Part shown: positions 3,388 to 38,080 of the stretch, in pieces | Layout of the letters: every line of letters begins with the position of its first letter | How positions within the stretch are numbered: the first letter of the stretch is position 1 | From: a virus | DNA length: 47,041 bases | Virus record (IMG/VR): IMGVR_UViG_3300030202_003906 | Span: 1 to 47,041 of that record | Direction: 5' to 3' (one strand) | Program-made: the position numbers and the translations under genes | Notes under the pieces: model-generated | Told to the model about the DNA's origin: nothing | Databases searched by the model: none | Seen by the model: the letters and a program-made list of their open reading frames with translations, nothing else

Positions 3388-5302
<1,915 letters not shown>

Positions 5303-5303
<1 letters not shown>

Positions 5304-8741: not shown

Positions 8742-9737
8742 GTGAAAGACTTAATTTGCATAACAGCACATTGTCCTAATACTGAAAAAAGAAAAATATT
8801 ACTTGATTTAGTTTTAGGGTTACAACCAATTAGAGATGACTTTGATATTATGGTTGTAAGTCATACTCCTATTACGTCGGATGTGCAAGAAAAAGTAGAT
8901 TGGGCAATCTATGATAAAGATAATGAATTATTAACTGAGTGGAAGTATCAAAATTCTCCATGGTTTCACCCTGAAAATAAACATATTCAATCTATCTTTT
9001 TTGGAGCTGGGAACACCTATCTTCCAGTACATAAACAATTAATTACTGGATATTCCTTAGCTAAAACTTTTGGTTACGAAAAAATCCATATGACTGAATA
9101 TGATGCTTATTATAAGGATTTTACTGAATTTTATGATAATTCTAAGGTTTTAGATGATTATGATGCTGTACTATATAAAAAACCTGATGGTTATGGGGAA
9201 ATTAATATTGAATGGGGATTAGGATGTTTTCATGCTGCTAAAATTTCTTCCTTAGATGAAAGAGCATTTAATTATACTAGTGATTCTATAAAAAAAGAAT
9301 TAGAAAATGCTTCTATTAAAACTACTGAAAAAAGAACTGAAGATATATATACAGCAAATAACAATAAAGTTTTATTTAAGGACCATAAACTTCTTACCCA
9401 GAATGGTAATCAAATAAGATTAGTTAATTTTCATGCTTTAAATTTAGACATGCAATGGGCTGTTCCTGTTTATGATTCAAAAATAAATCAAATTGTATTT
9501 GTAGGGTGGAATGAATCATCAAATAAACCTTGTAACGTAACTGTTATTATTAATAATTTTCGAGTTTTAAATTTTCCAAATCTTGAAAAATTACGTTGGT
9601 TTATAGAACCTCTTGGGACCCCAGAAGAAATATCAGATATTACTATTCTAATAAATAATAAATTAAGCCGACATATTCATCTCCACCCAGATAATATAGA
9701 AGATTTTAAATATTATAACTTTATCAAAGATGACTAA
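8742..9737 (+). CDS. Predicted GT-A-like glycosyltransferase, GTG start
   Basis: First gene of the glycan island. The 331-residue protein begins at GTG, the first in-frame start after the previous stop. An N-terminal Rossmann-like region (DLICITAHC, then FDIMVVSHTPI) leads to HMTEYDAYY at 117-125, where the E-x-D pair could act as a metal-binding DxD-type motif. A C-terminal domain of about 100 residues is of unknown type. Similar putative glycosyltransferases occur in T4-like marine phages. It overlaps the DegT gene by eight bases. The specific sugar is not visible. Confidence 0.55.
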   Translation: MKDLICITAHCPNTEKRKILLDLVLGLQPIRDDFDIMVVSHTPITSDVQEKVDWAIYDKDNELLTEWKYQNSPWFHPENKHIQSIFFGAGNTYLPVHKQLITGYSLAKTFGYEKIHMTEYDAYYKDFTEFYDNSKVLDDYDAVLYKKPDGYGEINIEWGLGCFHAAKISSLDERAFNYTSDSIKKELENASIKTTEKRTEDIYTANNNKVLFKDHKLLTQNGNQIRLVNFHALNLDMQWAVPVYDSKINQIVFVGWNESSNKPCNVTVIINNFRVLNFPNLEKLRWFIEPLGTPEEISDITILINNKLSRHIHLHPDNIEDFKYYNFIKDD

Positions 9738-10875
9738 AAAAATAGATTTATTTAAAGTTTTTATGGCACCTACAGCTGCTGAAGAAGTATCAAAAGTTCT
9801 TAATAGTGGTTATATTGGTCAAGGACCTAAAGTTAATGAGTTTGAAAATCAATTAAAAAACCATTTTAACCATGATTATATTCAGACTGTAAATGCGGGC
9901 ACATCAGCACTTCATTTAGCCTTACATTTATTAAAATCTCCTGATTCTCAATGGCCTGGATTAACTTCAGATGATGAAGTTTTAACTACTGCTATGACTT
10001 GTACAGCTTCAAATTGGCCTGTATTAGCTAATGGTTTAAAATTAAAATGGGTTGATATTGATTCAAAAACATTAAATATGGATCTTGATGATTTAGCTCG
10101 TAAAATTACTCCTAAAACTAAAGTTATTATTTTAGTTCATTGGGGTGGGTATCCTATTGATTTAGATCGAATAAAACAAATTCAAGATAAAACATACCAA
10201 ATGTATGGTTTCAAACCTGCTATAATTGAAGATGGAGCTCATTCATTTGGTTCAAGTTACAAAGGTAAACCTATTGGTACTCATGGTAATTTAACTATGT
10301 TTTCATTACAAGCAATTAAACATATTACTTCAATTGATGGTGGTTTATTACTTTCACCTCATAAGAAATTACATGATAGAGGTAAATTAGCTCGTTGGTA
10401 TGGGATAGACCGTGATGGAGATAGAAAAGATTTTCGTTGTGAAGCTGATATCGAAGAATGGGGATTTAAATTTCATATGAATGATGTTTGTGCTACTGTT
10501 GGAATTGAAAACTTTAAACATTTAGACGAAATTGTTTCTAAACATAAAGCAAATGCTGCTTATTATGATAAAGAATTACAAAATATTCCTGGGGTAACTC
10601 TTCTAGAACGTAAACCAGGTCATGATTCTGCATTTTGGATTTATTCTATGTTAGTAGAAAACCGTCCTGGTTTTTATAAGTGGATGGATGAGTGTAATAT
10701 TACAGTATCTCAAGTTCATGAACGAAATGATAAACATACTTGTGTAACTGAATATCGTTCTCATCTTCCAACATTAGATAAAATTATTAGAAGTATAGTT
10801 TCAATCCCTGTTGGTTGGTGGGTAAGCCAAGAAGAAAGAGAATATATTGTAGACTGTATTAAAAAAGGATGGTAG
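9730..10875 (+). CDS. DegT/DnrJ/EryC1/StrS aminotransferase, full length
   Basis: A PLP-dependent sugar aminotransferase that puts an amino group on a nucleotide-linked keto sugar. The 381 residues are the normal length. GYIGQGPKVNEFE at 27-39 and NAGTSALHLAL at 55-65 bind sugar and PLP phosphate, EDGAHSFGS at 167-175 contains the PLP-pyridine aspartate, and the Schiff-base lysine is K197 in LQAIKHI. It fits the WbpE step (3-amino transfer) if the nearby dehydrogenase, oxidoreductase and acetyltransferase form one pathway; it could equally make a 4-amino sugar. It overlaps both neighbours by a few bases. Confidence 0.9.
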   Translation: MTKKIDLFKVFMAPTAAEEVSKVLNSGYIGQGPKVNEFENQLKNHFNHDYIQTVNAGTSALHLALHLLKSPDSQWPGLTSDDEVLTTAMTCTASNWPVLANGLKLKWVDIDSKTLNMDLDDLARKITPKTKVIILVHWGGYPIDLDRIKQIQDKTYQMYGFKPAIIEDGAHSFGSSYKGKPIGTHGNLTMFSLQAIKHITSIDGGLLLSPHKKLHDRGKLARWYGIDRDGDRKDFRCEADIEEWGFKFHMNDVCATVGIENFKHLDEIVSKHKANAAYYDKELQNIPGVTLLERKPGHDSAFWIYSMLVENRPGFYKWMDECNITVSQVHERNDKHTCVTEYRSHLPTLDKIIRSIVSIPVGWWVSQEEREYIVDCIKKGW

Positions 10876-11786
10876 AATTTATTAAATTTTATAATAATCA
10901 TAAAGGATTAGTATTCCGTTCTCTATTCCCAGATCCTACTAATTTAATAGTTACAGTTAGTGATGGGTATACAGGATTAAATTTATGGAGAAGTAATCTT
11001 ACAGTTACCCAAAATACAGAATATTGGTTTTATGCTGATATAGATTCTTTAGAAAGAGAATTTACCATTTACAGTGAAGATTATCAAACACTTTTAAAAC
11101 TTTATATAAGTGTAGATGGATGCCCCTCAATAAAACAAATTGATAAATTTGGTATTCTTGAATCATATCAATATGATCAAAAAGATGAAAGAGGAGTATC
11201 TTTACCAATATATGAAATCTTCTTAAATAAAGTTTATGAAAATGAAAATTGTTATATTAAAGATAATGATATAGTATTTGATATAGGGGGTAATATAGGA
11301 ATTTTTTCTTACTATGCTATTTGTAAAAATGCTAAACAAATCCATACTTTTGAACCTGGATTACAACAATTTAATTCTATAAAAGATAATATTATTTCAA
11401 ATTTTTCTAATGTGATAGGTAATAATTGTGCCGTTAGTAAAACAGATAAACCAATTACATTTTACTTAGACCCAGAATCATCAGTAAAAAATAGTACAAC
11501 AAACCCATCAAATAGATTCTACCAAGTTAATTCTATAAATTTAGAAAAATATACTAAAGATAAAAATCTTAAAACTATTGATTTTTTAAAAATAGATTGT
11601 GAAGGAGGAGAGTATGATATAATAGATTCTTTAAGTAATGAATTTCTATTAAATGTAGTTAAAAAAATAGTTATTGAGTTACATAAAGATTTAGAATCTA
11701 AAGAAACAAATTTATTAATAAATAAATTAAGACAAAATAATTTTATAACGAATATTGAAGGTGATATTCTTTTTGCATGGAAATGA
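10869..11786 (+). CDS. FkbM-family methyltransferase with N-terminal extension
   Basis: A 305-residue protein with two parts. Residues 1-125 form a beta-rich region of unknown type. A SAM-dependent FkbM domain follows, with motif I FDIGGNIG at 137-144, FEPG at 161-164 and KIDCEGGE at 241-248. The enzyme probably O-methylates a sugar of the glycan assembled by this island. The following DUF1919 protein also starts with about 90 beta-rich residues, so the two N-terminal regions may play a similar binding role. It overlaps the DegT gene by seven bases and the next gene by ten. Confidence 0.82.
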   Translation: MVEFIKFYNNHKGLVFRSLFPDPTNLIVTVSDGYTGLNLWRSNLTVTQNTEYWFYADIDSLEREFTIYSEDYQTLLKLYISVDGCPSIKQIDKFGILESYQYDQKDERGVSLPIYEIFLNKVYENENCYIKDNDIVFDIGGNIGIFSYYAICKNAKQIHTFEPGLQQFNSIKDNIISNFSNVIGNNCAVSKTDKPITFYLDPESSVKNSTTNPSNRFYQVNSINLEKYTKDKNLKTIDFLKIDCEGGEYDIIDSLSNEFLLNVVKKIVIELHKDLESKETNLLINKLRQNNFITNIEGDILFAWK

Positions 11787-12751
11787 TTGAAATTACTCAA
11801 GCTACATATGGAGGAAGAATTCATTATACTGCTAAACAAGAGGTAAACACTCCACTTCAAGTAATTCTTAAAGATAAGAATTTAGAAGGAGAAATTTACA
11901 TAATGTCTCATAATAATTTATCTTTTACTGATTATTCATTCTCAGTATCTTCAGTAGTTTTACCTTTTTTAAAATCCCCTTATTTAGAAATTACTTTAGG
12001 TTCTCAAACCACATCTTATCCTTTTAATTTTGATAAAGGACCTTTAAATAATTTTTCTATAATATCAAATTCGTGTTTAGGTTGGAGAACTTATGAAAAA
12101 TTTAATTCTTCTTATAATTCTCCTACTATTGGTAATTTAATTTTAGATGATTTAGAATATTTAAGGTTTTGTGAACACAATGAAACTTATTTAAATGCTG
12201 AAATGGTATTTGGAGAAAGTAAAGGCAACATAAATTTTAAAAATAGTTGTGGAAATGTTAGGGTTATTAATGATAAAGCTGATATACCTGATAATTATCC
12301 TATTAGTCATCATTTAGATTTAGAAATTCATTGGATACATACCCACCCAAGATCTAAACTTACTTTTAAAGATAATATCTACCATTACGTAGAATTTAAA
12401 GACCAAATAATTCCTTTATCAACATTTAAAGAAAAATGGATTAGAAGAGTAAATAGAGTTAAATCAACAGAAAAAATATTTATTTGGTCTTCTTCTGAAT
12501 TATTTAATGCTCATGGTAATTGGGAAAGAAAACAAATTATTAATAGATTTAAATCACTCCCAGATAGAAGTATTTTTCTTACTGAACGAAAAGAAGAAGC
12601 ATTTGAAGATGATTTACACATAGTTAAATATATTCCTAAATGGAAGGGAAATTCTCAATATGAAAGAGATTCATCTGGAGGCATGTTATGGAATGATCAA
12701 TTAGATAATGCACAAATCACCCACGATATAATTATTTCAAAATTTATATAA
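11777..12751 (+). CDS. DUF1919-like exopolysaccharide protein
   Basis: A 324-residue protein whose core matches DUF1919, a family found in polysaccharide loci. FSIISNSCLGW at 93-103 and YNSPTIGNLI at 113-122, followed by EYLRFC at 127-132, are the family's opening block; HHLDLEIHWIHTH and NWERKQIINRF follow. The first 90 residues are a beta-rich domain of unknown type. DUF1919 proteins are thought to be transferases but no activity is proven to my knowledge. The last base of its stop codon is the first base of the acetyltransferase start. Confidence 0.72.
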   Translation: MEMIEITQATYGGRIHYTAKQEVNTPLQVILKDKNLEGEIYIMSHNNLSFTDYSFSVSSVVLPFLKSPYLEITLGSQTTSYPFNFDKGPLNNFSIISNSCLGWRTYEKFNSSYNSPTIGNLILDDLEYLRFCEHNETYLNAEMVFGESKGNINFKNSCGNVRVINDKADIPDNYPISHHLDLEIHWIHTHPRSKLTFKDNIYHYVEFKDQIIPLSTFKEKWIRRVNRVKSTEKIFIWSSSELFNAHGNWERKQIINRFKSLPDRSIFLTERKEEAFEDDLHIVKYIPKWKGNSQYERDSSGGMLWNDQLDNAQITHDIIISKFI

Positions 12752-13185
12752 TGAATTTAATACCTTTAACTGAAAATGATTTACCTTTTTTACTAGAAAT
12801 CAGAAATGATGATTCTACAAGAAATAACTTAGAGAATGATTCAACATTTACTCTTCCAGAGTGTAGAATTTGGTTTGAATGCACTAAACCTAAATGGTAC
12901 ATTATTTTTCAACATGGGATGCGTTTAGGTTATATTAGAACTAATGGTGATGAAGTTGGTTGTGATATACATCCTAATTTTAGGAGACGTGGTTATGCTA
13001 AAATGGCTTATGAAACTTATCTTGAAGATAAGGACTATGCTTCACTATGGGTTTTTGAAGATAATTTTGCAAAAGAATTATATGAAAAACTAGGTTTTTA
13101 TACTACTTGGAAAAGTAAAATAATTAGAGAAAGAAAATATGTAAAAATGGAATGGATATCAACTAAATCAATGACTTATGGATAA
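12751..13185 (+). CDS. GNAT-family N-acetyltransferase
   Basis: A 144-residue acetyl-CoA-dependent transferase. The pyrophosphate-binding Q/RxxGxG/A motif is RRRGYA at 78-83, preceded by the GCDIHPNF strand; the C-terminal ELYEKLGF is the typical last motif. In this setting an amino-sugar acceptor is most likely, but a protein or small molecule is possible. It starts at TAATG with the DUF1919 gene and overlaps the next gene by eight bases. Confidence 0.85.
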   Translation: MNLIPLTENDLPFLLEIRNDDSTRNNLENDSTFTLPECRIWFECTKPKWYIIFQHGMRLGYIRTNGDEVGCDIHPNFRRRGYAKMAYETYLEDKDYASLWVFEDNFAKELYEKLGFYTTWKSKIIRERKYVKMEWISTKSMTYG

Positions 13186-14110: not shown

Positions 14111-14114
14111 CTTA

Positions 14115-14146
14115 TTTGGTTACCGTAAAAAAATTTCGTATATTTA
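14115..14146 (+). promoter_or_regulatory. Bacteroidota-type promoter for the Cas4-like nuclease
   Basis: TTTG at 14115-14118, a 20-base spacer starting GGTTACC-like (GTTACC here, GTTCCCC elsewhere) and TATATTTA at 14139-14146 followed by CG. The nuclease start codon is 18 bases after the -7 element, so the leader is very short. Confidence 0.8.
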
Positions 14147-14164
14147 CGACTTAAATAATTAGAT

Positions 14165-15112: not shown

Positions 15113-15115
15113 TTA

Positions 15116-15125
15116 TATACGTATA
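15116..15125. promoter_or_regulatory. Palindrome TATACGTATA upstream of the 61-residue gene
   Basis: Second copy of the palindrome seen at 2517, four bases after a stop codon and again followed by AATATAAA. Its last bases overlap CGTATATTCA, which resembles the -7 element. It may be a regulator site or part of a weak promoter for the gene at 15149. Confidence 0.35.
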
Positions 15126-15148
15126 TTCAAATATAAATTAAATATGTT

Positions 15149-15334: not shown

Positions 15335-15337
15335 AAA

Positions 15338-16768
15338 ATGAAAGAAGGTTATTTACCAAAGGATCAACGGAAAAATATTTTGTTGATCACAGACGATATT
15401 CGTCTCCCATCAGGTGTAGGGCATATAGGAAAAGAAATTGTAATCCAAACTGCACACCATTATAATTGGGTAAATTTAGGCTCAGCAATCAACCATCCTG
15501 ATGTAGGTAAAAAGTTTGATTTAAGTCAAGAAACTAATAAAGAAATAGGTATTGAAGATGCTTCCTGTTTTATAATTCCATTTAATGGGTATGGTAATCC
15601 TGATGTTTTAAGACACGTAATTAAAGAAGAAAAAATAGATGCTGTTTTTATAATTACAGATCCACGTTATTTTGATTGGTTGTTTGCAATTGAGAATGAA
15701 ATTAGAAAAAAAACTCCTATTATTTATTTAAATATTTGGGATGATCTACCTGCACCAATGTATAATAAAGCATTTTATGAATCTTGTGATGCATTATTAG
15801 GGATTTCAAAGCAAACAGTTAATATCAATAAAATGGTATTAGGGGAAAAATCAAAAAATAAAATTATTGATTATGTCCCTCATGGTTTAAATCCTAAAAT
15901 GTTCTTTCCTTTAGATAAAACTTCTGAAGAATTTATAAAGTTTAGAAATGAAGCTACTAAAGGTAAAGAAAAAGATTTTATTTTATTTTTCAATTCAAGA
16001 AATATTCGCCGCAAATCAATTCCAGACGCTTTATTAGCTTGGAAATATTTCCTTGATACTTTACCTAAAGAAAAAGCAGATAAATGTTTATTCATTCTTC
16101 ATACTGAACTTATTAGTGAACATGGAACAGATCTACAAGCTGTTCATAATTATATTTTTGGGCAAGATAATGCTACTGTTCAATTTTCTACTCAAAAATT
16201 GTCTACTCAACAAATGAATTCTTTATATAATTTAGCTGATGCTCAAATTTTATTATCATCTGCTGAAGGTTGGGGATTATCATTAACAGAAGCTTTATTA
16301 ACTGGTACCCCAATTATTGCTAATGTTACTGGTGGGATGCAAGATCAAATGAGATTTGAAGATGAGGATGGAAATTGGATTGATTTTGATTCTGATTTCC
16401 CATCTAACCATACAGGTAAATATACAAAATGTGGTAATTGGGCATTTCCAGTATACCCAAGTAATCTTTCCTTAGTAGGTTCACCTCAAACTCCATATAT
16501 TTGGGATGATAGATGTAATCCCTTAGATGCTGTAACTCATATTACTTCATTATATAATATGACTCGTGAAGAAAGAGAAAAAATAGGAAAAGAAGGTTAT
16601 GATTGGGCTCATAGTGAAGAAGCTGGATTTACTTCTCCTAAAATGGCAAAAAGAGTAATGGATAGCGTTGATAAGTTATTTAAAAGTTGGAAACCTCGTC
16701 CAAATTATGAATTTATTAATACTAATGAAGTTAAAGAAGATAGAGTACCCCATAAATTGTTATATTAA
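15338..16768 (+). CDS. GT4-type glycosyltransferase (GT-B fold)
   Basis: A 476-residue retaining-type glycosyltransferase. The N-terminal domain begins ILLITDDIRLPSGVGHI; the C-terminal nucleotide-sugar domain starts near FILFFNSRNIRRKS and contains EGWGLSLTEALLTGTPII, the E-x7-E type motif of the GT4 family. HGLNPKMFFPL separates the domains. The donor sugar is unknown. Another GT4 enzyme follows after 21 bases, so they probably act in sequence. Confidence 0.85.
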   Translation: MKEGYLPKDQRKNILLITDDIRLPSGVGHIGKEIVIQTAHHYNWVNLGSAINHPDVGKKFDLSQETNKEIGIEDASCFIIPFNGYGNPDVLRHVIKEEKIDAVFIITDPRYFDWLFAIENEIRKKTPIIYLNIWDDLPAPMYNKAFYESCDALLGISKQTVNINKMVLGEKSKNKIIDYVPHGLNPKMFFPLDKTSEEFIKFRNEATKGKEKDFILFFNSRNIRRKSIPDALLAWKYFLDTLPKEKADKCLFILHTELISEHGTDLQAVHNYIFGQDNATVQFSTQKLSTQQMNSLYNLADAQILLSSAEGWGLSLTEALLTGTPIIANVTGGMQDQMRFEDEDGNWIDFDSDFPSNHTGKYTKCGNWAFPVYPSNLSLVGSPQTPYIWDDRCNPLDAVTHITSLYNMTREEREKIGKEGYDWAHSEEAGFTSPKMAKRVMDSVDKLFKSWKPRPNYEFINTNEVKEDRVPHKLLY

Positions 16769-16789
16769 ATTAAAGAATACATATTAAGA

Positions 16790-18121
16790 ATGAAAAAACC
16801 ACTATTCATTATATCCTCCCCTTTTGACACATACTCTGGTTATGGAGCTCGTAGTCGTGATTTAATTAAATCTATTATTAAGAGTGATAAGTATGATGTT
16901 AAATTACTTTCTCAAAGATGGGGTACTACTCCTTTTGGGTTTTGTGAAGATCATTCACAATGGAAATTTTTATTAGATTATATTGCACCTTTAGAATGGC
17001 AGCAAGGTAAAATGCCTAAACCTGATGTTTGGTCTCAAATTACAGTACCTAATGAATTCCAACCTGTTGGAAGATTTAATATAGGTTTTACTGCTGGGAT
17101 GGAAACTACAGCGGTAGATCCTACTTGGGTTGAAGGTATGGAAAGAATGGATTTAAATTTTGTATCCTCAGAACACTCTAAAAAAGTATTTTTAGATTCT
17201 CAATTTGATAAAATCCATGAAAAAACTAAACAAAAAGTAGGTATAGTTAAAATAACAAAACCACTTGAAGTGTTATTTGAAGGAGCTGATTTATCTACTT
17301 ATTTCCCATTAACAGATAAACAAATTTATACTAAGCAAGCTACTCCCCTAATTTCAGATATAAATGAAATTCCAGAATCTTATGCCTATCTTTCAGTAGG
17401 ACATTGGATGCAAGGTAATATGGGTGAAGATAGAAAAAATATAGGGTTATTAATTAAAGCTTTTTATGAAACTTTTAAAAATAAAAAAAATAAACCTGCA
17501 TTAATTTTAAAAACTTCAAGTGCGGGAGCATCTTATGTAGATAGAGATCAAATCCTTAAAAAAATTACCCAATTGAAAAGTTCAGTTGTATCTAAAAACC
17601 TTCCTAATATATATTTGTTACATGGTGAACTTTCAGATGTTGAAATGAATTTACTTTATAATCATCCTAAAGTAAAAACTATGGTTAGTTTAACTAAAGG
17701 TGAAGGTTTTGGACGCCCTCTACTTGAGTTTAGTTTAAGTAAAAAACCAATTATTGTAAGTGGATATAGTGGCCATATGGATTTTTTAAATCCTGAATTT
17801 AATGTTATGTTAAAAGGATCATTAACTAATGTCCATAAAAGTGCAGCTGTACCAAAAATGATTCTTGAAGATTCTAAATGGTTCTCACCTGCTCATCCCG
17901 AAGTTGGTAAAGCATTTGTTGACACATTTGAAAATTATAAAAAATATCAAGAACTAGGTAAACGTCAAGCTCATTTAAGTAAAACAAAATTTAGTTGGGA
18001 AGCAATGCATACTAAGTTTGATGGGCTATTAAGTGAATATCTTGATAAATTACCTAAAGAAGTTCCTTTAAATATGCCTAAGATGAACTTACCAAAATTA
18101 AAATTACCTAAAAAGAAGTAA
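16790..18121 (+). CDS. GT4-type glycosyltransferase (GT-B fold)
   Basis: A 443-residue glycosyltransferase of the same class as its upstream neighbour. It opens with LFIISSPFDTYSGYGARSRD, a nucleotide-sugar-type Rossmann start with a glycine-rich loop. The C-terminal domain has LHGELSDVEMNLLY and KGEGFGRPLLEFSLSKKPII, again the E-x7-E-type motif. It ends in a proline/lysine repeat tail (MPKMNLPKLKLPKKK), perhaps for membrane or protein contact. The acceptor and donor are unknown. Confidence 0.85.
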   Translation: MKKPLFIISSPFDTYSGYGARSRDLIKSIIKSDKYDVKLLSQRWGTTPFGFCEDHSQWKFLLDYIAPLEWQQGKMPKPDVWSQITVPNEFQPVGRFNIGFTAGMETTAVDPTWVEGMERMDLNFVSSEHSKKVFLDSQFDKIHEKTKQKVGIVKITKPLEVLFEGADLSTYFPLTDKQIYTKQATPLISDINEIPESYAYLSVGHWMQGNMGEDRKNIGLLIKAFYETFKNKKNKPALILKTSSAGASYVDRDQILKKITQLKSSVVSKNLPNIYLLHGELSDVEMNLLYNHPKVKTMVSLTKGEGFGRPLLEFSLSKKPIIVSGYSGHMDFLNPEFNVMLKGSLTNVHKSAAVPKMILEDSKWFSPAHPEVGKAFVDTFENYKKYQELGKRQAHLSKTKFSWEAMHTKFDGLLSEYLDKLPKEVPLNMPKMNLPKLKLPKKK

Positions 18122-18123
18122 CT

Positions 18124-18582
18124 ATGAATTATGATCAAATAATAGATTGCCCTAAATCAGGAGGGGATTTATGTTATAAAACTGAAATTAACGATAAAAT
18201 TACAAATTATTTAAGCTTATCTTGTGGATTTTGGACTAATAGTCTAATGAAAAAAGATTCAGAATTCCATAAAGAACAACTAGTCACACTCCCAGAGTTA
18301 TATAAAGATATTTCTTGGGAAGATCCAGAAACAGGATTAATTTGGATACCTAATACTATTAACATTAAAGAAAAAGGAATGGTATTTGCTGATGGTCCAA
18401 ATGGAGAAAATTGGAGATGGGCAGCTGTAAAAGCTACTTTAATGGATAAAGAAGAATCAGAAAAATTTAAAGCTAAAGGTAAAGATTTTAAGTGGAAAAT
18501 GAATATGAAAACCATTAAACACTTTGAAGAAACTGATTTTATAGAAGCTATGGATTATATTGGAGTGTTTGAAAAATCATGA
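18124..18582 (+). CDS. Conserved phage protein of unknown function
   Basis: A 152-residue protein that I associate with a widespread uncharacterised protein of marine T4-like phages: IDCPKSGGDLCYK at the start, LPELYKDISW in the middle, WRWAAVKA, and FEETDFIEAMDYIGVF at the end. CPKS at residues 9-12 resembles half of a zinc ribbon that has lost a cysteine. Its place among glycosyltransferases does not prove a glycan role. It overlaps the next gene by ATGA. Confidence 0.6.
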   Translation: MNYDQIIDCPKSGGDLCYKTEINDKITNYLSLSCGFWTNSLMKKDSEFHKEQLVTLPELYKDISWEDPETGLIWIPNTINIKEKGMVFADGPNGENWRWAAVKATLMDKEESEKFKAKGKDFKWKMNMKTIKHFEETDFIEAMDYIGVFEKS

Positions 18583-19205
18583 AAATTTCCTTTGCAATTA
18601 CAGTTTGTAATGAATCAAATGAGATTCAAAAACTACTTCCTTTTTTAATTGAAAATAAAAGAGAAGAAGATGAAATTGTAATATTATATGATTCTAAAAA
18701 CGGATCTAAAGCAGTAGAAGATTATTTAAGAGCCCACTCAGTAGTTACATATCCCGATTTTATTTGGCATCCTTATAAATTTGATGGGCATTTTGCCAAT
18801 ATGAAAAATCATCTTACAAGTCTATGTAATGGTGATTATATTTATCAGATTGATGCTGATGAAATGGTAAATGAGTATATTTTGGCAGCTATACCTCAAC
18901 TTTTAGAAGCTAATGATGTAGATGTACTTAGAGTACCTAGAATTAATACAGTTTCAGGTTTAACTCAAGAACATATTAATAAATGGGGTTGGATGGTTGA
19001 TGATAGGGGTTGGGTAAATTTCCCGGATTATCAATGGAGAATATACAGAAATAACGCAGAAATAAAATGGGTAAATAAAGTACATGAAATATTAACTGGA
19101 TATAAAACTCATGCGGATTTACCTCCAAACCAAGAATGGTGTTTATTACATCCTAAAGATATAAAACGACAAGAAAAACAAAATTCTTACTACGAAACAC
19201 TCTAA
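18579..19205 (+). CDS. GT2-family glycosyltransferase
   Basis: A 208-residue GT-A enzyme. SFAITVCNESNEI at 3-15 and DEIVILYDSKNGS at 31-43 form the nucleotide-binding half; DADEM at 92-96 is the metal-binding DxD. WVDDRGWVNFPDYQWRIYR and KWVNKVHEIL near the end resemble the acceptor region of LPS-core-type GT2 enzymes (WaaE-like). Its stop and the next start share TAATG. Which sugar is transferred is unknown. Confidence 0.83.
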   Translation: MKISFAITVCNESNEIQKLLPFLIENKREEDEIVILYDSKNGSKAVEDYLRAHSVVTYPDFIWHPYKFDGHFANMKNHLTSLCNGDYIYQIDADEMVNEYILAAIPQLLEANDVDVLRVPRINTVSGLTQEHINKWGWMVDDRGWVNFPDYQWRIYRNNAEIKWVNKVHEILTGYKTHADLPPNQEWCLLHPKDIKRQEKQNSYYETL

Positions 19206-19498
19206 TGAAACTAAAAGAATATTATCAGATGTATCTTACATTACATCAAAACAAAAATTGTATTAGAATACATTTTTTAGGTCAATGGGTAACTTTAATA
19301 ATTACCTCTTTAATATTTTATCATTGGTTGTGGTATTTAATTCCTATAATACCATTTATAATTTACCCATTTGCTTGGACTGGTCATTATTTATTTGAAA
19401 AAAATGAACCAGCAGCATTTAAAGACCCTGTTAAAGCTAAACTTTCAGACTGGATGATGTTTTGGGATATATTAAGAGGTAAAATTAGCATATTATGA
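19205..19498 (+). CDS. DUF962/Mpo1-like membrane protein
   Basis: A 97-residue integral membrane protein of the DUF962/Mpo1 family. YYQMYLTLHQNKNCIRIHFLG at residues 6-26 with H14 and H23, two central transmembrane segments (about 28-40 and 42-58), then WTGHYLFEKNEPAAF at 58-72 with H61, all in the conserved order. The yeast member Mpo1 is an Fe(II)-dependent dioxygenase that shortens 2-hydroxy fatty acids. Here the histidines that should bind iron are present. It could change host membrane or lipid A fatty acids. Phage function is untested. Confidence 0.82.
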   Translation: MKLKEYYQMYLTLHQNKNCIRIHFLGQWVTLIITSLIFYHWLWYLIPIIPFIIYPFAWTGHYLFEKNEPAAFKDPVKAKLSDWMMFWDILRGKISIL

Positions 19499-20358
19499 GA
19501 ATATTAGTTACAGGAGGAGCTGGATTTATTGGTACTAATTTAATAAAAAGATTATTAAACGAAGGTCATAAAGTACATTCTTTAGATGACTATTCTACTG
19601 GGAGTGAAAAAAATCATCAAAGAGGATGTAAATATATTATAGGTAAAGTTGAAGAGAAAAGATCCCAATCAAACCTACATCAAAATTATGATTTAATTTA
19701 CCACCTTGCTGGGTTATCTAGAATACAACCCTCATTTAATAATCCTACAGCTACATTTTTAGCTAATACAGTAGGTACACAAGAAATGTGTGAATTTGCA
19801 AGAATCACTAATGCAAAATTAGTATATGCTGGTTCTTCATCAAAACACCATGATCCATATCAATCTCCCTATGCAGCGTATAAATACCTTGGTGAAGAAG
19901 TTTGTAAAATGTATAGAAAAACATATGGGATTGACATTGAAATAGTAAGATTTTATAATGTTTATGGTCCTAAAGAAGTAATTGATGGTGACTGGGCTGC
20001 AGTTATTGGAATTTGGAGAAGACAAATAAGAGATAATGAACCTATTACAATTGTAGGTGATGGGGAACAACGAAGAGATTTTACTCATGTAGATGATATT
20101 GTAGATGGTTTATGGAGAGTAGGAATGAAATCAATTAAACATGAAGATGCTTGGGAATTAGGTACAGGTTGTAATTATTCTCTTAATGAGGTATATCAAA
20201 TGTTTAAAAATAAATTTGAAACTACTTGCATCTACCTTCCAGATCAATCAGGTAACTACAGAAAAACACTTAGAGAAAATAATGATGCTATTGAAAGATT
20301 AGATTGGCAACCCCAAGATAGATTATTAAATTACATTAACAATTTGGAAAAGTTATGA
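19495..20358 (+). CDS. NAD-dependent sugar epimerase/dehydratase (extended SDR)
   Basis: A 287-residue nucleotide-sugar SDR. GGAGFIG at 7-13 binds NAD, GSSS at 113-116 and Y126-x-x-x-K130 give the catalytic triad, and RFYNVYGP and RDFTHVDDIVDGL are typical of the UDP-hexose 4-epimerase group. The exact reaction (4-epimerase versus dehydratase) is not readable from motifs alone. It overlaps both neighbours by ATGA, placing it directly before the 6-dehydrogenase gene. Confidence 0.85.
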   Translation: MRILVTGGAGFIGTNLIKRLLNEGHKVHSLDDYSTGSEKNHQRGCKYIIGKVEEKRSQSNLHQNYDLIYHLAGLSRIQPSFNNPTATFLANTVGTQEMCEFARITNAKLVYAGSSSKHHDPYQSPYAAYKYLGEEVCKMYRKTYGIDIEIVRFYNVYGPKEVIDGDWAAVIGIWRRQIRDNEPITIVGDGEQRRDFTHVDDIVDGLWRVGMKSIKHEDAWELGTGCNYSLNEVYQMFKNKFETTCIYLPDQSGNYRKTLRENNDAIERLDWQPQDRLLNYINNLEKL

Positions 20359-21206
20359 GAGATATAATTGAAAGAAGAAGAAAACCAATGAAAAAAGTTG
20401 GGGTATTAGGTAATGGATTTGTGGGTGAATCACAAGCCTTTGCTTTTAGCCCTACAGCTGAAGTTAAAATATTTGATGTTGATCCTTTAAAAAGTATGCA
20501 CACTTTAGAGGAGGTACATGATTGTGATTTTATTTTTGTTTGTGTTCCTACACCAATGAAAAAAGATGGTTCACAGGATAGTTATTATATTGAAAATGTA
20601 TTTAACCATGCTAAAAAAGGTCCTATTTATATAATTAAATCTACTGTTTTACCGGGCACAACAGTAAAATTACAAGAACAGTATCCACATCTTAATATTA
20701 TATTTTGCCCTGAGTTTTTAACTCAAAGAACTGCTAAATTGGATACATTAACTCAAGCTCGAATTATTTTTGGAGGAGAAGAAAATTTAACTCAAAAAGT
20801 AGAAAAGTTATTTGCTGAACGTTTTATGAATCGTCATTATATTCATACAGATGCTACTACTGCTGAATTAACTAAATACATGAATAATTCTTTCTTTGCT
20901 ACTAAAGTATCTATTATGAATGAATTTAAACGTATAAGTGATGCTTTAGGTACTAATTGGGATGATGCTTTATATGGTTTTGTTTGTGATAGTAGAATTG
21001 GAGACAGTCATCTACACGTTCCAGGACCTGATGGTAAATTAGGATATGGTGGTGTATGTTTTCCTAAAGATGTAAATGCTTTAATTACATTAGGTAAAGA
21101 ATTAGGCACACCAATGCATACTTTAGAAGCAGGTTGGAAAACTAATCTTGAGGTAAGACCTGAACGTGATTGGGAAAAAATGAAAGGTAAAGCTGTAAGT
21201 GAGTAA
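20355..21206 (+). CDS. UDP-glucose/UDP-HexNAc 6-dehydrogenase, short form
   Basis: A two-step NAD-dependent oxidation enzyme that makes UDP-uronic acids. GNGFVG at 19-24 binds NAD, PEFL at 119-122 and ELTKYMNNSF at 171-180 hold the catalytic lysine K174, and the nucleophilic cysteine is C235 in GGVCFPKD. The protein has 283 residues, against about 400-430 for cellular enzymes; the C-terminal UDP-binding domain is missing. It may be a compact phage form or need a partner. The ATGA start at 20355 is kept, but MKKVGVLG at 20388 is an equally plausible start. It fits the WbpA or Ugd step. Confidence 0.85.
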   Translation: MRDIIERRRKPMKKVGVLGNGFVGESQAFAFSPTAEVKIFDVDPLKSMHTLEEVHDCDFIFVCVPTPMKKDGSQDSYYIENVFNHAKKGPIYIIKSTVLPGTTVKLQEQYPHLNIIFCPEFLTQRTAKLDTLTQARIIFGGEENLTQKVEKLFAERFMNRHYIHTDATTAELTKYMNNSFFATKVSIMNEFKRISDALGTNWDDALYGFVCDSRIGDSHLHVPGPDGKLGYGGVCFPKDVNALITLGKELGTPMHTLEAGWKTNLEVRPERDWEKMKGKAVSE

Positions 21207-21679
21207 TGAGTAATTTTATACATAAAACTGCTATTGTAGATAAAGAAGTTACTATAGGTAATAATACTAAAGTTTGGGCTTTTTCACATATAAGTAAAGG
21301 AGCTAAAATAGGTGATAATTGTGTTATTGGAGAAGGAGTTCATGTAGGAATAGGAGTAATTATAGGTGATAATTGTAAAATACAGAATCATAGTTTATTA
21401 TATGAAGGTGTAACTTTAGAAAATAATGTATTTTTAGGACCTAACACTATAACAACTAATGACATTTACCCTAAAGCTAAAGGAGAATGGGCTAGAGAAA
21501 ACTTTAGACCTACTTTATTTAAAGAAGGTTGTGCTATTGGAGCTAATTCAACTATACTTTGTGGTATTACTGTAGGTAAGGATGTTTTAATAGGAGCAGG
21601 TTCTGTAGTTACTAAATCTATCCTCCCAGGTAAAATAGCTTATGGTAACCCAGCCCAAGTAAAAAAAGATAACAAATGA
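21206..21679 (+). CDS. Left-handed beta-helix N-acetyltransferase, WbpD/WlbB-like
   Basis: A 157-residue acetyl-CoA transferase of the hexapeptide-repeat fold. Isoleucine-rich hexapeptides run through most of the protein. The segments KVWAFSHI, GDNCKIQNHSLLYEGVTLE, FLGPN, FRPTLFKEGCAIGAN and GAGSVVTKSI match the order seen in WbpD/WlbB, the 3-N-acetyltransferase that makes UDP-2,3-diacetamido-2,3-dideoxyglucuronic acid. It follows the 6-dehydrogenase by TAATG. Close relatives acetylate other amino sugars (for example FdtC), so the substrate is inferred from context. Confidence 0.88.
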   Translation: MSNFIHKTAIVDKEVTIGNNTKVWAFSHISKGAKIGDNCVIGEGVHVGIGVIIGDNCKIQNHSLLYEGVTLENNVFLGPNTITTNDIYPKAKGEWARENFRPTLFKEGCAIGANSTILCGITVGKDVLIGAGSVVTKSILPGKIAYGNPAQVKKDNK

Positions 21680-22668: not shown

Positions 22669-23318
22669 ACGACTCAGGATTTACATATACCCACTATAAA
22701 AATACAATTCAACTAGCTTTAGATAAAGAATATACTTTTCTAAGATGTGAACAGTATAATGAAATTGTTAAACATGACAGGGTAGTTATGTTAAGACATG
22801 ATATTGATTTTTCCTTAGAGGGAGCTTTAAAGTTAGCTGAAATTGAAAACCAGTTAGGTGTTACTTCATCATATTTTATTAGACTACACTCTAGACACTA
22901 TAACCCTTTAGAGTATAATTCTTATAACATAATAAAAAAAATCCAAAATTTAGGCCATGAAATTGGACTTCACCAAGAGCCCGCTTTTGCTTTCTGTATG
23001 TCTGAACACCCAAATGATTACGTCCAACAAGAAATTAATTCATTTAATTCTATTTTTCAAACTAAAATTAAGGGTGTTTCAACCCATGAACCTACAAGAA
23101 CAGAAATTCAAATAACCCCTGAAAACATTACAAAATTTAACATAGAGTATGAAAGTTATTTCCCCGTATTTACTCAAAACATGAAATATATTTCTGATTC
23201 TGGTGCAAGGTGGAGGGAGGGTGATATGTTTGAATGGCTGCAAAAAAATACTCCTAAATTATACGTTTTGACACACCCAGTTTGGTGGTATAATAAAACT
23301 ACCTTAGAAAACTACTAA
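22665..23318 (+). CDS. Polysaccharide deacetylase-like protein (CE4/NodB fold)
   Basis: A 217-residue protein related to metal-dependent polysaccharide deacetylases. LRHDIDFS at 43-50 holds the metal-binding aspartates, ALKLAEIENQLGVTSSYF follows in family order, and GHEIGLHQE at 97-105 provides the second histidine motif; STHEPTR near 141-147 may contribute as well. Family members remove N-acetyl or N-formyl groups from glycans; ArnD, which removes formyl from lipid-linked Ara4N, belongs here. The next gene encodes a formyltransferase, so an add-then-remove formyl step is conceivable. Confidence 0.8.
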   Translation: MNDSGFTYTHYKNTIQLALDKEYTFLRCEQYNEIVKHDRVVMLRHDIDFSLEGALKLAEIENQLGVTSSYFIRLHSRHYNPLEYNSYNIIKKIQNLGHEIGLHQEPAFAFCMSEHPNDYVQQEINSFNSIFQTKIKGVSTHEPTRTEIQITPENITKFNIEYESYFPVFTQNMKYISDSGARWREGDMFEWLQKNTPKLYVLTHPVWWYNKTTLENY

Positions 23319-23320
23319 AA

Positions 23321-24232
23321 ATGAAAACAACAGCTTTTATAAATTGTATCGAATCAGGTTATGAATTATTAACCCATTTATTAAATAATGGTACCCGAAT
23401 AGATTATATCATATCCCTTACCCCCGAGCAAGCAGTAAAATTTAATGTATCAGGGTATAAGGATTTTACAGATATTTCAAAAAAACATAATATTCCTATT
23501 TATTACCCTGAAAGATTTAATTTAAAAGGGGAAAGGGACATCATGTTTTTCAAAACAAATAAATTTGATTTATTAATGGTGTTTGGATGGCAAAGACTTG
23601 TCCCTGACAGTATTATTAAAAGTTTAAAATTAGGAGCTTTAGGAGCTCATGGAAGCTCTGAATTGCTTCCTAAGGGTAGAGGAAGGTCCCCTCAAAATTG
23701 GTCTTTAATCGAAGGTAAAACTAAATTTATTATACATCTATTTTATTTAGATCCTGGAGCTGATTCCGGTGATATAATTGATTACATGGAATATGATTTA
23801 AACGAGTGGGATGATATTAAAACTTCGTATTATAAGGTTCAAATCTGCTTAAGAAAATTACTTGAAAAGAATTTGACATTAATACTTAATAATACTGTTT
23901 CTTTAATTAAACAAGACCATTCTAAAGCTACCTATTATCCAAAACGTACCCCACAAGATGGAATGATAGATTGGAAATCTACTACTAAAGAAATATACAA
24001 TCTTATAAGAGCGGTTACTAAACCTTACCCTGGAGCTTTTACCCCTACTAAAAATGTAACGATATGGAAAGCTCAACCCTTTGATAGTAGAATATCTTAC
24101 TCTAATGCTAAACAAGGTGAAATAGTTGAAGTTTTTGATACTAAGTGTTTTGTAATTAAAACTGTAGATGGTTCTTTATATGTAACTGATTATGAAACTG
24201 ATGCTAATTTAAAAGTTGGAGATAAATTATGA
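23321..24232 (+). CDS. Sugar N-formyltransferase-like protein
   Basis: A 303-residue protein with the N10-formyl-tetrahydrofolate transferase core. GALGAHGSSELLPKGRGRSP at 105-124 is the folate-transferase signature, with catalytic H110 and the distal aspartate D148 in ADSGD. The position two residues before H110, normally asparagine in methionyl-tRNA and ArnA formyltransferases, is G108. The C-terminal domain (about 190-303) resembles the ArnA/Fmt barrel. In a glycan island an amino-sugar nucleotide is the likely substrate. It is followed by an SDR with ATGA overlap, which recalls the two-domain enzyme ArnA. Confidence 0.82.
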   Translation: MKTTAFINCIESGYELLTHLLNNGTRIDYIISLTPEQAVKFNVSGYKDFTDISKKHNIPIYYPERFNLKGERDIMFFKTNKFDLLMVFGWQRLVPDSIIKSLKLGALGAHGSSELLPKGRGRSPQNWSLIEGKTKFIIHLFYLDPGADSGDIIDYMEYDLNEWDDIKTSYYKVQICLRKLLEKNLTLILNNTVSLIKQDHSKATYYPKRTPQDGMIDWKSTTKEIYNLIRAVTKPYPGAFTPTKNVTIWKAQPFDSRISYSNAKQGEIVEVFDTKCFVIKTVDGSLYVTDYETDANLKVGDKL

Positions 24233-25206
24233 TAGCCAGACCTAAAATAAAAAATAGTACAATCTTAGTTACAGGTGGAGCTGGATTTATAGGTAGTCAT
24301 TTAGTTGATAGATTACTTACAGAACAAGCAAAACAGGTAATTGTAGTAGATAATATGTTTCTTGGAGATGAAGATAATTTAAAAGATGCTTTTAAAAAAG
24401 GAATTATCCTTTATAAAGATGATTGTGAAATCTATACTTCTTTAGAATATATATTTGACAAACACGACATTGATATAGTTTTTAATTGTGCCACAAAACC
24501 AATTAATTATACATTTATGAATCCTTCTAATGGGTTTCATTGTAATACAAATATTATTATTAATCTTTTAGAACTGCAACGTAAAAATCAGTTTAAAACA
24601 TTAGTTCATTTCTCTACCTCAGAGGTATTTGGTAGTGCTGTTTATGAACCTATGGATGAAGATCATCCTTTAAATCCAAAAACAACATATGCTGCTGGAA
24701 AAGTAGGTGCTGACAAGGCATTAGAATCTTGGGTTGATAGTTTTGGGTTAGATGCTTTTATAGTTAGACCATTTAATAATTATGGTCCTAGACAAAATGC
24801 AAAACCCCCCTTGGCTGCTGTAATCCCTGTTACTATGTTTAACTTAATTAATGGTCAATCACCAGAAATTTGGGGTGATGGATTACAAAGTAGGGATTTT
24901 ATTTATGTACATGATACTGTAGATGCTATTATAAAGGTTTATGATAAATTATCTCCTAAAGAATCAGTAAATATATCTACAGATGGTCAAATTACTATTA
25001 AAGAAGTTGTAGAAGATATTTGTACTATTATGAAAGGAATGGATTATAAAGTAAAAGATATAATCTATAAGCCAGCTAGAAAAGCTGATGTAGAATGTCA
25101 TATAGCTAGTAATAAAAAAATTAAATCACTTATTAATTATCAACTTACTGACTATATACGTGGTTTAGGAGAAACTATTAGTTGGTACCAAAAAACATTA
25201 AAATAA
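24229..25206 (+). CDS. NAD-dependent epimerase/decarboxylase-like SDR
   Basis: A 325-residue nucleotide-sugar SDR. GGAGFIG at 16-22 binds NAD, and Y154-x-x-x-K158 is the catalytic pair. STSEVFG at 129-135 has the Ser-Glu variant seen in UDP-glucuronate decarboxylases and in ArnA, rather than the Asp-Glu of 4,6-dehydratases. However, where ArnA has its decarboxylase arginine (R619), this protein appears to have histidine in DVECHIAS. It may therefore be an epimerase. It lies between the formyltransferase and a DegT aminotransferase. Confidence 0.83.
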   Translation: MIARPKIKNSTILVTGGAGFIGSHLVDRLLTEQAKQVIVVDNMFLGDEDNLKDAFKKGIILYKDDCEIYTSLEYIFDKHDIDIVFNCATKPINYTFMNPSNGFHCNTNIIINLLELQRKNQFKTLVHFSTSEVFGSAVYEPMDEDHPLNPKTTYAAGKVGADKALESWVDSFGLDAFIVRPFNNYGPRQNAKPPLAAVIPVTMFNLINGQSPEIWGDGLQSRDFIYVHDTVDAIIKVYDKLSPKESVNISTDGQITIKEVVEDICTIMKGMDYKVKDIIYKPARKADVECHIASNKKIKSLINYQLTDYIRGLGETISWYQKTLK

Positions 25207-26024
25207 TGCCTGTAGTAATTAGAAATATTTTTGAAGATTATGTTAAAGATCGCTTTGACTTAGAAGACTGTATTGCAGTTAATAATGGAAGTAGTGCTAT
25301 AATAGCTGCTTTATGGTCTATGGATTTAAAATCTGATGATGAAGTTATAACAACTCCATTTACATTTATTTCCACTGTAACTTCTATTATTGTATCAGGT
25401 GCTAAACCTGTATTTGTAGATATTAATGAAGAAGATTATTTAATTAATGCTGATTTAATTGAAGCCGCCATTACATCTAAAACAAAAGCTATTATGCCTG
25501 TCCATTTATATGGGCAAGTATGTGAAATGGATAAAATTAACCAAATTGCTAAAAAACATAATTTAGTAGTAATTGAAGATACATCACAATCATTTGGAGC
25601 AGAACAAAATGGTAAATTAGCAGGAATGCTTTCAGATGTAGGTACTTTTTCATTCCAAAAAACAAAAAATATAAATACTTTTGAAGGTGGAATGATTTGT
25701 GTTCCTAAAAATTCTAAATTAGATGCTTCTAAAATTAGAGCAATTTGTAATCAAGGTCAAACTAGTAAATATTATCATGAATACTTAGGTTTTAATTTTA
25801 GATTAGCAGAACCTCTTTGTTTAATGGCTTATAGTCAAATGAAACTTCATATGACAGGAATTAAATCAGAACTAGGACTTAGAGGTCCTAAAGATGGTCA
25901 TTATCCTTATGTAGTTTATGATCAACCAGCAATTAAAAGACTAGGAATAACTGGAAATTGTCCTATAGCAGAAGCTAAAGCTAAATTTATTAATGAAAAC
26001 TATTTCAAAAGTAAAAAAGTATGA
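25206..26024 (+). CDS. Compact DegT-family aminotransferase
   Basis: A PLP-dependent sugar aminotransferase with 272 residues instead of about 370. The start is ATG at 25206 (TAATG with the SDR); an earlier in-frame ATG at 25182 lies inside that gene. AVNNGSSA at 24-31, EDTSQSFGA at 124-132 and the Schiff-base lysine K154 (QKTKNI) are intact. Compared with the family it lacks about 35 N-terminal residues, some 60 residues between MKLHMTG and GHYPYVVYDQPA, and the last helices. No frameshift or stop explains this. It may be a minimal enzyme or a substrate-altered one. Confidence 0.82.
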   Translation: MPVVIRNIFEDYVKDRFDLEDCIAVNNGSSAIIAALWSMDLKSDDEVITTPFTFISTVTSIIVSGAKPVFVDINEEDYLINADLIEAAITSKTKAIMPVHLYGQVCEMDKINQIAKKHNLVVIEDTSQSFGAEQNGKLAGMLSDVGTFSFQKTKNINTFEGGMICVPKNSKLDASKIRAICNQGQTSKYYHEYLGFNFRLAEPLCLMAYSQMKLHMTGIKSELGLRGPKDGHYPYVVYDQPAIKRLGITGNCPIAEAKAKFINENYFKSKKV

Positions 26025-26212
26025 ATAAAAAAAGAGAACTAATGGAAGATATTCTGGCTGTTAATACAGTAATAGAAGAAGTTTGGAATTATCATCCATC
26101 AAATCCCAATAAATTAGATATTGAAGAAGAATATGATAAACTCATGGAAATTAAATCTGATCTTCAAAAAGAATTAGTTGAATTAGAGAACTCACAAACA
26201 GATGAAGTATAA
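26021..26212 (+). CDS. Small helical phage protein
   Basis: A 63-residue acidic helical protein. VIEEVWNYHPSNPNKLDIEEEYDKL is a pattern I associate with a small conserved phage protein of unknown function, with coiled-coil-like flanks. It is coupled by ATGA to the aminotransferase and overlaps the oxidoreductase gene by eleven bases. No role in glycan synthesis is evident. Confidence 0.6.
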   Translation: MNKKRELMEDILAVNTVIEEVWNYHPSNPNKLDIEEEYDKLMEIKSDLQKELVELENSQTDEV

Positions 26213-27212
26213 AGTAGGAATTATTGGTTGCGGAGGCATATTTCCAAGACATATAGAAGCAATAGAAGCTAATGAAGAATTTGAATTAACATCAGTTTGT
26301 GATATACAACCTACATTAGCTAAAAGTTTAGGTAAAAGATATAATGTATCATATTATACTGATTACCAAGAAATGATTAAAAACGAAGATGTTAATTTCA
26401 TTGTTATTGCTACCCCAAATGTTTTACATAAAGAACAAGCAGAATTTTCTTTATCTAACAAATGTGATGTATTAATTGAAAAACCTGTAGCATTTAATAT
26501 TAAAGATGTGAAAGCTATTCAAAAACATGCTGAAAAAAGTAAGCAAACTGCTTATTGTGTATTACAAGTTAGATTAAATCCAACAGTACACTTATTAAAA
26601 GAGGTACTTGAAGATAAATTATTAGGGGAAATTAGAGGCTTTAGTTTTACTCAAAGATGGCAACGCCCACTTGAATACTTTTCAGGATGGAGAGGTGAAC
26701 CAGAAGTAGGTGGAGGTATTTTATATGAAACTGGGATTCATTATTTGGATATATTACAATATTTACTTGGAGCCCCTAAAGAAGTACTTGCTACAAAATT
26801 ATATACTACTAAACATAAAGATGGAGTAATTGAAGATACAGTATATTCCCTAGTTGATTATGGTGAATTTGGTGGTACTGTTGAATCTACAATAGCTACA
26901 GAACCACGTAACATTGAAAGTTCTATTTCATTATTAGGATCAAATGGTTATATAAAAATAGGAGGTAAAGCCCTAAATATAATAGAATCAGCAACGTTTT
27001 TAAGTCATGGGAGTACTACAGAATATGATAGAATTAGTAAAAAATATGACCAAGCAAATCAACCTAATTCATATGGTTCTTATCAAGGTTCGTGTCCTAA
27101 CCATCCTGATGTTTATAAAAATTTAAAAGATTTTAATTTGGCTCAAACATATAATGTTATTACCTTAATTGAAGGCATTTATAATAAAGCCGGAGTGGTA
27201 TATGGAAAATAA
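26202..27212 (+). CDS. Gfo/Idh/MocA oxidoreductase, WlbA/WbpB-like
   Basis: A 336-residue NAD(P)-dependent sugar oxidoreductase. GIIGCGGIFPRH at 6-17 is the nucleotide-binding loop, LIEKPVAF at 91-98 holds the catalytic lysine K94, and GGGILYETGIHYLDILQYLLG carries the catalytic histidine in GIHYLD. The first loop and LQVRLNP near 121-127 recall WlbA/WbpB, the UDP-GlcNAcA 3-dehydrogenase. The next classes in that pathway (WbpD-like, DegT) are in the same island, which strengthens the assignment, but inositol-type dehydrogenases share the motifs. Confidence 0.85.
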   Translation: MKYKVGIIGCGGIFPRHIEAIEANEEFELTSVCDIQPTLAKSLGKRYNVSYYTDYQEMIKNEDVNFIVIATPNVLHKEQAEFSLSNKCDVLIEKPVAFNIKDVKAIQKHAEKSKQTAYCVLQVRLNPTVHLLKEVLEDKLLGEIRGFSFTQRWQRPLEYFSGWRGEPEVGGGILYETGIHYLDILQYLLGAPKEVLATKLYTTKHKDGVIEDTVYSLVDYGEFGGTVESTIATEPRNIESSISLLGSNGYIKIGGKALNIIESATFLSHGSTTEYDRISKKYDQANQPNSYGSYQGSCPNHPDVYKNLKDFNLAQTYNVITLIEGIYNKAGVVYGK

Positions 27213-38039: not shown

Positions 38040-38080
38040 ATTATATTCACAGTTCATTAATATTAACTAAATTCAAAACA

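Follow-up and report, generated by a model that had tools for sequence, protein, structure and literature searches.

Does a phage carry the enzymes needed to make its own rare sugar acid? This question is raised by a sugar gene island in the IMG/VR virus record IMGVR_UViG_3300030202_003906, which was analyzed here over its whole length (47,041 bp, guanine-cytosine (GC) content of ~29%; hereafter, the window). An initial annotation had attributed to this island the four enzyme classes (WbpA, WbpB, WbpE and WbpD) that make uridine diphosphate (UDP)-2,3-diacetamido-2,3-dideoxy-glucuronic acid, or UDP-GlcNAc(3NAc)A, from UDP-N-acetylglucosamine (UDP-GlcNAc), with two candidates for WbpE. The five open reading frames concerned, designated by their first positions (9730, 20355, 21206, 25206 and 26202), were all confirmed at these positions on the + strand. 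Their Pfam matches are far beyond chance, and the genes of the sugar set are real, intact and under purifying selection (ratio of nonsynonymous to synonymous substitution rates, dN/dS, of ~0.09-0.33 between the window and related records). Three of the four classes were retrieved (WbpB, 26202; WbpD, 21206; WbpE, 25206), but 9730 was rejected as WbpE, and 20355 found no support as WbpA. We consider it rather likely that this phage island holds the last three enzymes of UDP-GlcNAc(3NAc)A synthesis and adds diacetamido-glucuronic acid, or a near variant of it, to a glycan of the virion or of the host. That the phage makes its own rare sugar is thus likely to hold for no more than the last three steps, the assignment of the first one to 20355 being unsupported.

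Among the Gfo/Idh/MocA enzymes of solved structure, the predicted product of 26202 is closest to WlbA, the 3-dehydrogenase of UDP-N-acetylglucosaminuronic acid (UDP-GlcNAcA). Its top matches in PDB are 3q2i (expect value, E, of 2.3e-39) and 3q2k (6e-34), compared to 9e-23 for the next group, 4e-12 for WbpB and 5e-12 for inositol dehydrogenase. We take 3q2i and 3q2k to be WlbA from Chromobacterium violaceum and from Bordetella pertussis, reportedly the subject of a work by Thoden and Holden in 2011, which PMC10622841 cites. Inositol dehydrogenase was considered as a candidate and rejected, its E-values being 22-27 orders of magnitude weaker than those of the WlbA matches. No match for 26202 was found in PHROGs v4, and no NCBIfam equivalog exceeds its cut-off for any member of the sugar set. 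Relatives of 26202 were found in 31 phage loci (51-95% identity), some of these contigs being closely related to each other. Bacterial orthologues (46-51% identity) are present in five of 380 genomes of the phylum of L029, a metagenome-assembled genome of Candidatus Levyibacteriota that was the top match of a generic-pattern genome contig scan whose lower matches were uninformative. The 177-bp gap that precedes 26202 (26024-26202) includes an open frame of ~60 residues overlapping the start of the WlbA gene; the corresponding place in the phage locus L009 is occupied by a methyltransferase gene.

The N-ACETYLTRANSFERASE encoded by 21206 has 3mqg, which we presume to be WlbB, as its top PDB match (E of 3.7e-34), and is 46-49% identical to WlbB of two bacterial operons (L116 and L117). 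NCBIfam recognizes only a broad NeuD/PglB/VioB subfamily, under the cut-off. Judging from these similarities, this protein is closest to WlbB/WbpD among the hexapeptide acyltransferases of solved structure and would acetylate the 3-amino group of the sugar.

The aminotransferase encoded by 25206 has an unusual size, 272 residues compared to ~365 in its relatives. It covers positions 29-235 of the 360 of the DegT profile, plus a short HYP..QP tail, and is devoid of ~30 N-terminal residues and of ~85 residues of the small domain. It retains the lysine (FSFQKTKNINT) and aspartate (IEDTSQ) that bind pyridoxal phosphate as well as the GFNFR and HYP..QP motifs. The small domain is therefore incomplete in 25206 with respect to the DegT fold, ~85 residues being gone in all the compact relatives compared, and for this reason we refer to the enzyme as a WbpE-like compact variant. 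Frameshift or decay was rejected as an explanation of its shortness, since identical gaps are present in ten relatives (70-99% identity) and dN/dS is low (0.09-0.18). An AlphaFold2 model built from 13 sequences has a predicted local distance difference test score (pLDDT) of 75.5 and a predicted template modelling score of 0.81, compared to a pLDDT of 35 for a single-sequence model. According to this model, the protein is predicted to take the sugar-aminotransferase fold: Z is 27.0 with WbpE (3nu7) and ranges from 27.4 to 26.4 with other sugar aminotransferases, WbpE being tied with perosamine synthase, WecE, QdtB and 8e75, the latter described as an aminotransferase for UDP-N-acetyl-3-amino-glucosaminuronic acid. 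The compact enzyme, being conserved, can be seen as a naturally minimal form of an enzyme fold that has been studied in detail.

It is the gene context, not the fold, that decides the substrate of 25206. In six phage loci (L143, L160, L161, L170, L173 and L129), its relatives adjoin WlbA as in the window. In two other ones, L123 and L124, relatives sharing 84-86% identity are directly followed by a Gfo/Idh protein that is clearly a WbpB in L124 (E of 2.5e-77 to WbpB 3oa2) and is 94% identical to the latter in L123. In L124, the compact aminotransferase is moreover preceded by a WlbB-like acetyltransferase and, ~2 kb upstream, by a WbpI-like epimerase (E of 9e-68 to 8sxv, a UDP-2,3-diacetamido-2,3-dideoxy-glucuronic acid 2-epimerase). 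Since two different 3-dehydrogenases acting at the same step adjoin the compact enzyme, this is strong evidence for 3-amination, and 25206 would thus aminate C3.

Of the 31 phage WlbA loci, 16 have a relative of 21206 (57-71% identity) at most three genes from WlbA, and eight have a DegT gene adjacent to WlbA or one gene away. By comparison, close WlbB and compact DegT relatives are both lacking in 11 comparable phage islands chosen by their 6-dehydrogenase. In bacteria, orthologues of 26202 belong to operons DegT-WlbA-WlbB-2-epimerase (L116 and L117), WlbA-WlbB-DegT-6-dehydrogenase with a GGHC motif typical of the WbpA/WecC branch (L118), DegT-WlbA (L115) and DegT-WlbA-formyltransferase-glycosyltransferase-2-epimerase (L029). 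These contents correspond to the Wbp pathway as it has been laid out (PMC10622841). They also bear on a route resembling that of GnnA/GnnB, in which 26202 would oxidize UDP-GlcNAc itself and lead to a non-uronic 2,3-diamino sugar. An archaeal UDP-GlcNAc 3-dehydrogenase is indeed the best NCBIfam model for 26202 (104 of 450 bits, far under the cut-off), and the window has no WbpA-type enzyme. However, we regard this route as highly improbable: 26202 matches the solved WlbA enzymes best, its L118 orthologue shares an operon with a WbpA-type 6-dehydrogenase, and WbpI-like epimerases occur together with the set in L029, L116 and L117. Overall, the initial assignments of 26202 to the WbpB class, 21206 to the WbpD class and 25206 to the WbpE class are supported both by their best matches and by independent phage and bacterial neighbourhoods.

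WlbB-WlbA pairs also occur in two records of jumbo-phage size, L010 (353 kb, without any DegT or PF00155 match) and L162 (269 kb). Three other phage loci have genes resembling those of methyltransferases or sulfotransferases between WlbB and WlbA (L007, 9441-10004; L008, 8801-10011; L012, 1136-1768; labels based on the look of the sequences and their mutual similarity, not on profiles), which suggests further decoration of the sugar.

Homology and context both give good support to 3-oxidation, 3-amination and 3-N-acetylation. The host would most likely supply UDP-GlcNAcA; WlbA (26202) would then oxidize its C3, the compact WbpE (25206) would place an amino group on it, and WlbB/WbpD (21206) would acetylate this group to yield UDP-GlcNAc(3NAc)A, whose sugar would be transferred by glycosyltransferases of the island to a virion protein or to a surface glycan of the host. 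This proposal draws on homology, on the motifs and the compact form that relatives share, on the linkage of the genes and on purifying selection, from which we infer the substrates, reaction order, product, host and acceptor. No 2-epimerase (PF02350) was detected in the window, which may be a fragment, nor in 20 related records, and the product is therefore expected to be the gluco isomer; 2-epimerases are present in L124 and L179, which are both outside of these 21 records. GlcNAc(3NAc)A has similarly been proposed as the product in Bacteroidota that carry four Wbp genes and no wbpI (PMC4031482).

Several points weigh against this proposal. The acetyltransferase gene lies beside 20355, 3.5 kb upstream of 25206 and 26202, and the predicted fold of 25206 matches WbpE about as well as it does QdtB, WecE and perosamine synthase. 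Three phage records (68, 353 and 21 kb) carry WlbA and WlbB but no DegT, and no PF00155 aminotransferase was found in them either. The set would thus be incomplete in some phages, or these phages would either use the WlbA/WlbB pair differently or, as the presence of this pair without DegT suggests, leave the other steps to enzymes of the host. Furthermore, the putative first enzyme, 20355, is of UDP-glucose type and is unlinked to the set in most phages. Lastly, the island includes a formyltransferase gene, 23321, and a formyltransferase gene also adjoins WlbA in the bacterial L029. The final acyl group could thus be a formyl or a mixture, giving a 3-formamido or other 3-N-acyl variant in place of the 3-acetamido one. 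Formyltransferases neighbour WlbA in L004 and L005 and L150 too, and a relative of 23321 is directly upstream of WlbB in L008 and L148. A formyl variant is nevertheless quite unlikely in our view, given that the island has a WlbB-type N-acetyltransferase, the commonest partner of WlbA, and that 23321 could serve a separate 4-amino sugar together with 24229 and 9730.

The case of 20355 differs from that of the three central genes. Its product lacks the C-terminal (UDP-binding) domain and has, in its active site, the motif GYGGVCFPKD in place of the GGHC of the WbpA/TviB/WecC branch. It shares 33% identity with a bacterial Ugd (L109; E of 4e-32) and 30% with that of Escherichia coli (1e-26) versus 23% (1e-13) and 26% (6e-16) with WbpA/WecC-type enzymes, and NCBIfam prefers UDP-glucose dehydrogenase models. 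Moreover, as its relatives (71-76% identity) are found in 11 phage contigs with no WlbA nearby, it cannot be tied to the diacetamido set. Production of UDP-glucuronic acid (UDP-GlcA) rather than of UDP-GlcNAcA is therefore more likely on these grounds, and the WbpA assignment is not retained; that 20355 performs the first step seems doubtful. If it did, the phage would possess a complete pathway, starting with a universal precursor and ending with UDP-GlcNAc(3NAc)A. The overlap of 20355 with the start of the WlbB gene would fit this view, as would L179, where a short dehydrogenase of the same type lies within ~6 kb of WbpI-, WbpE-, WbpD- and WbpB-like genes, so that the linkage expected for a WbpA is seen there although not in most phages. 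In addition, ugdA of Porphyromonas gingivalis was called a wbpA homologue, and its mutant has reduced A-lipopolysaccharide (A-LPS) (PMC4031482). Against it stand the CFPKD motif and the scores, both those of UDP-glucose dehydrogenases, the GGHC-type enzyme of the Wbp operon in L118, the missing C-terminal domain and the 11 contigs without WlbA; on balance, we hold the complete pathway to be doubtful as well. We judge unlikely a stronger version, namely that the phage is self-sufficient and converts UDP-GlcNAc into UDP-2,3-diacetamido-glucuronic acid by a miniaturised set of four enzymes, so as to copy or overwrite a surface sugar of its Bacteroidota host; a 6-dehydrogenase without its C-terminal domain and an aminotransferase without its small-domain core would then both be minimal working enzymes.

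Table 1. Sugar-related features of the window, those of the proposed pathway being listed first.
Feature	Position	Strand	Length (residues)	Supporting match or remark
WlbA-type Gfo/Idh/MocA 3-dehydrogenase	26202..27212	+	336	Pfam GFO_IDH_MocA, E 7.7e-27
Compact WbpE-type DegT aminotransferase	25206..26024 (ATG; alternative TTG 25182)	+	272	Pfam DegT, 4.4e-71
WlbB/WbpD-type left-handed beta-helix N-acetyltransferase	21206..21679	+	157	Pfam hexapeptide, 2.4e-27
Short nucleotide-sugar 6-dehydrogenase, UDP-glucose-dehydrogenase type	20355..21206	+	283	Pfam UDPG_MGDP_dh, 3.2e-22 and 1.6e-19
AtmS13/CalS13-type DegT aminotransferase	9730..10875	+	381	Pfam DegT, E 2.4e-71
Short epimerase of the short-chain dehydrogenase/reductase (SDR) type	19495..20358	+		Pfam Epimerase, 4.9e-49; phrog_540 nucleotide-sugar epimerase; overlaps start of 20355
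ArnA-type sugar N-formyltransferase, possible alternative acyl step	23321..24232	+		Formyl_trans_N/C; ArnA formyltransferase, E 5e-29
SDR with STSE motif, 4,6-dehydratase/decarboxylase-like	24229..25206	+		Pfam Epimerase, 4e-49; overlaps start of compact DegT
Island frame: glycosyltransferase (GT) 4, GT4, 152-residue protein, GT2	15338..19205	+		53%, 57%, 39% and 55% identity to immuto genes, order kept

The two DegT proteins of the island (Table 1) belong to different subfamilies. The second WbpE candidate, 9730, was rejected: its best PDB matches are 4zwv and 4xau (E of 1e-123), then CalS13 (4zas, 3e-111), compared to only 2e-19 for WbpE. We take 4zwv and 4xau to be AtmS13. The AtmS13/CalS13 aminotransferases, to which 9730 shows a close full-length match, are found in actinomycete antibiotic clusters, whereas 9730 is phage-borne. 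Two of the five genes, 9730 and 20355, are thus closest to enzymes of other pathways (the initial annotation had placed its limit at two or more), and the three central steps stand. These two genes may serve, together with the epimerase gene 19495, a separate sugar derived from UDP-GlcA; relatives of 19495 adjoin a 6-dehydrogenase gene or lie near one in L003, L013, L009 and L165.

This raises the possibility that the island makes unrelated sugars: 20355, 19495 and 9730 would lead to a UDP-GlcA-derived sugar or an aminopentose, 24229, 25206 and 23321 to a 4-formamido sugar, and 26202 would act elsewhere. Besides the affinities of 9730 and 20355, this would account for the overlap of 24229 with 25206, for its dehydratase/decarboxylase-like STSE motif and for the adjoining formyltransferase gene. 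The RmlB and LegB models of NCBIfam score about equally on 24229, a relative of which is directly upstream of WlbA in L004, L005, L006 and L011. However, relatives of 25206 lie beside WlbA or WbpB without any adjacent relative of 24229 in six loci (L149, L160, L170, L173, L123 and L124), and DegT is paired with WlbA in bacterial operons, so that unrelated sugars appear very unlikely to explain the whole set.

The genes of the proposed pathway belong to a stretch (8,382-29,482) with a single gene direction and tight packing, mostly with overlaps of 1-17 bp, which also includes, according to profile matches, several glycosyltransferases, a GNAT protein, a FkbM methyltransferase and a DUF1919 protein. 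Genes for GroES, GroEL, a PD-(D/E)XK nuclease, two GT4, a 152-residue protein, a GT2 and an HNH protein share 39-60% identity with those of Flavobacterium phage vB_FspM_immuto, their order being kept. The phage is, from these similarities, Immutovirus-like, a statement that rests on gene order and on homologues shared with immuto, and its host is probably a marine member of Bacteroidota. The glycan island of immuto resembles the present one by this frame and by a DegT 58% identical to 9730, and has an epimerase 44% identical to that of 19495. It differs by other sugar genes between GT2 and HNH and by the lack of any annotated Gfo/Idh gene, immuto being absent from the listed phage records that match WlbA. 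Because immuto has other sugar genes between GT2 and HNH, the island can be viewed as a variable slot of Immutovirus-like phages.

Outside of the island, the GroES/GroEL pair occupies 3388-5303 (GroEL 59.5% identical to that of immuto). A full-length TonB-dependent receptor is encoded at 38018-40645 (plug PF07715 and barrel PF00593, with a stretch resembling a signal peptide close to the N-terminus), in a region of 35% GC compared to ~29%; relatives 35% identical over 95% of its length are present in two faecal "Bacteriophage sp." records. At 32644-34220, the C-terminal region of a PfkB-type kinase (PF00294) overlaps an ADP-heptose 6-epimerase-like SDR, possibly a phage ADP-heptose pair, beside which lies a protein resembling 2-oxoglutarate-Fe(II) oxygenases (34217-34909). 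The window also includes a transaldolase-like gene (42-626, phrog_440), an ORF of 309 residues (838-1767) whose similarity to phage DNA polymerase families is confined to the C-terminal part of the latter and, near the end of the record, a radical S-adenosylmethionine protein with a SPASM domain (44545-45495).

Phages with sugar-nucleotide genes are already known, and wbpD was listed as a viral auxiliary gene in a metagenomic survey (PMC13211439). No report of a linked phage gene set for this diacetamido sugar acid was found in the literature searched, which excluded subscription papers. With the present island, the idea that a virus builds a rare acylated uronic acid can be put to the test, which matters for the glycosylation of virions, the masking of receptors and superinfection exclusion among marine Bacteroidota. 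Compared with the Wbp/Wlb systems of Pseudomonas aeruginosa and Bordetella (WbpA, WbpB/WlbA, WbpE/WlbC, WbpD/WlbB and WbpI), it has homologues of the 3-dehydrogenase, 3-aminotransferase and 3-N-acetyltransferase, and the partners found in bacterial operons match; it differs by its location in a phage, by an aminotransferase ~100 residues shorter, and by having neither a WbpA-type 6-dehydrogenase nor any 2-epimerase found. The Wbp set of P. gingivalis (ugdA, wbpB, porR and PGN_0002, no wbpI) likewise comprises the four classes without 2-epimerase, in what is likely the same phylum as the host of this phage, whereas it is chromosomal and scattered and serves A-LPS (PMC4031482). It further differs in that 26202 belongs, by its sequence, to the WlbA class of Chromobacterium and Bordetella.

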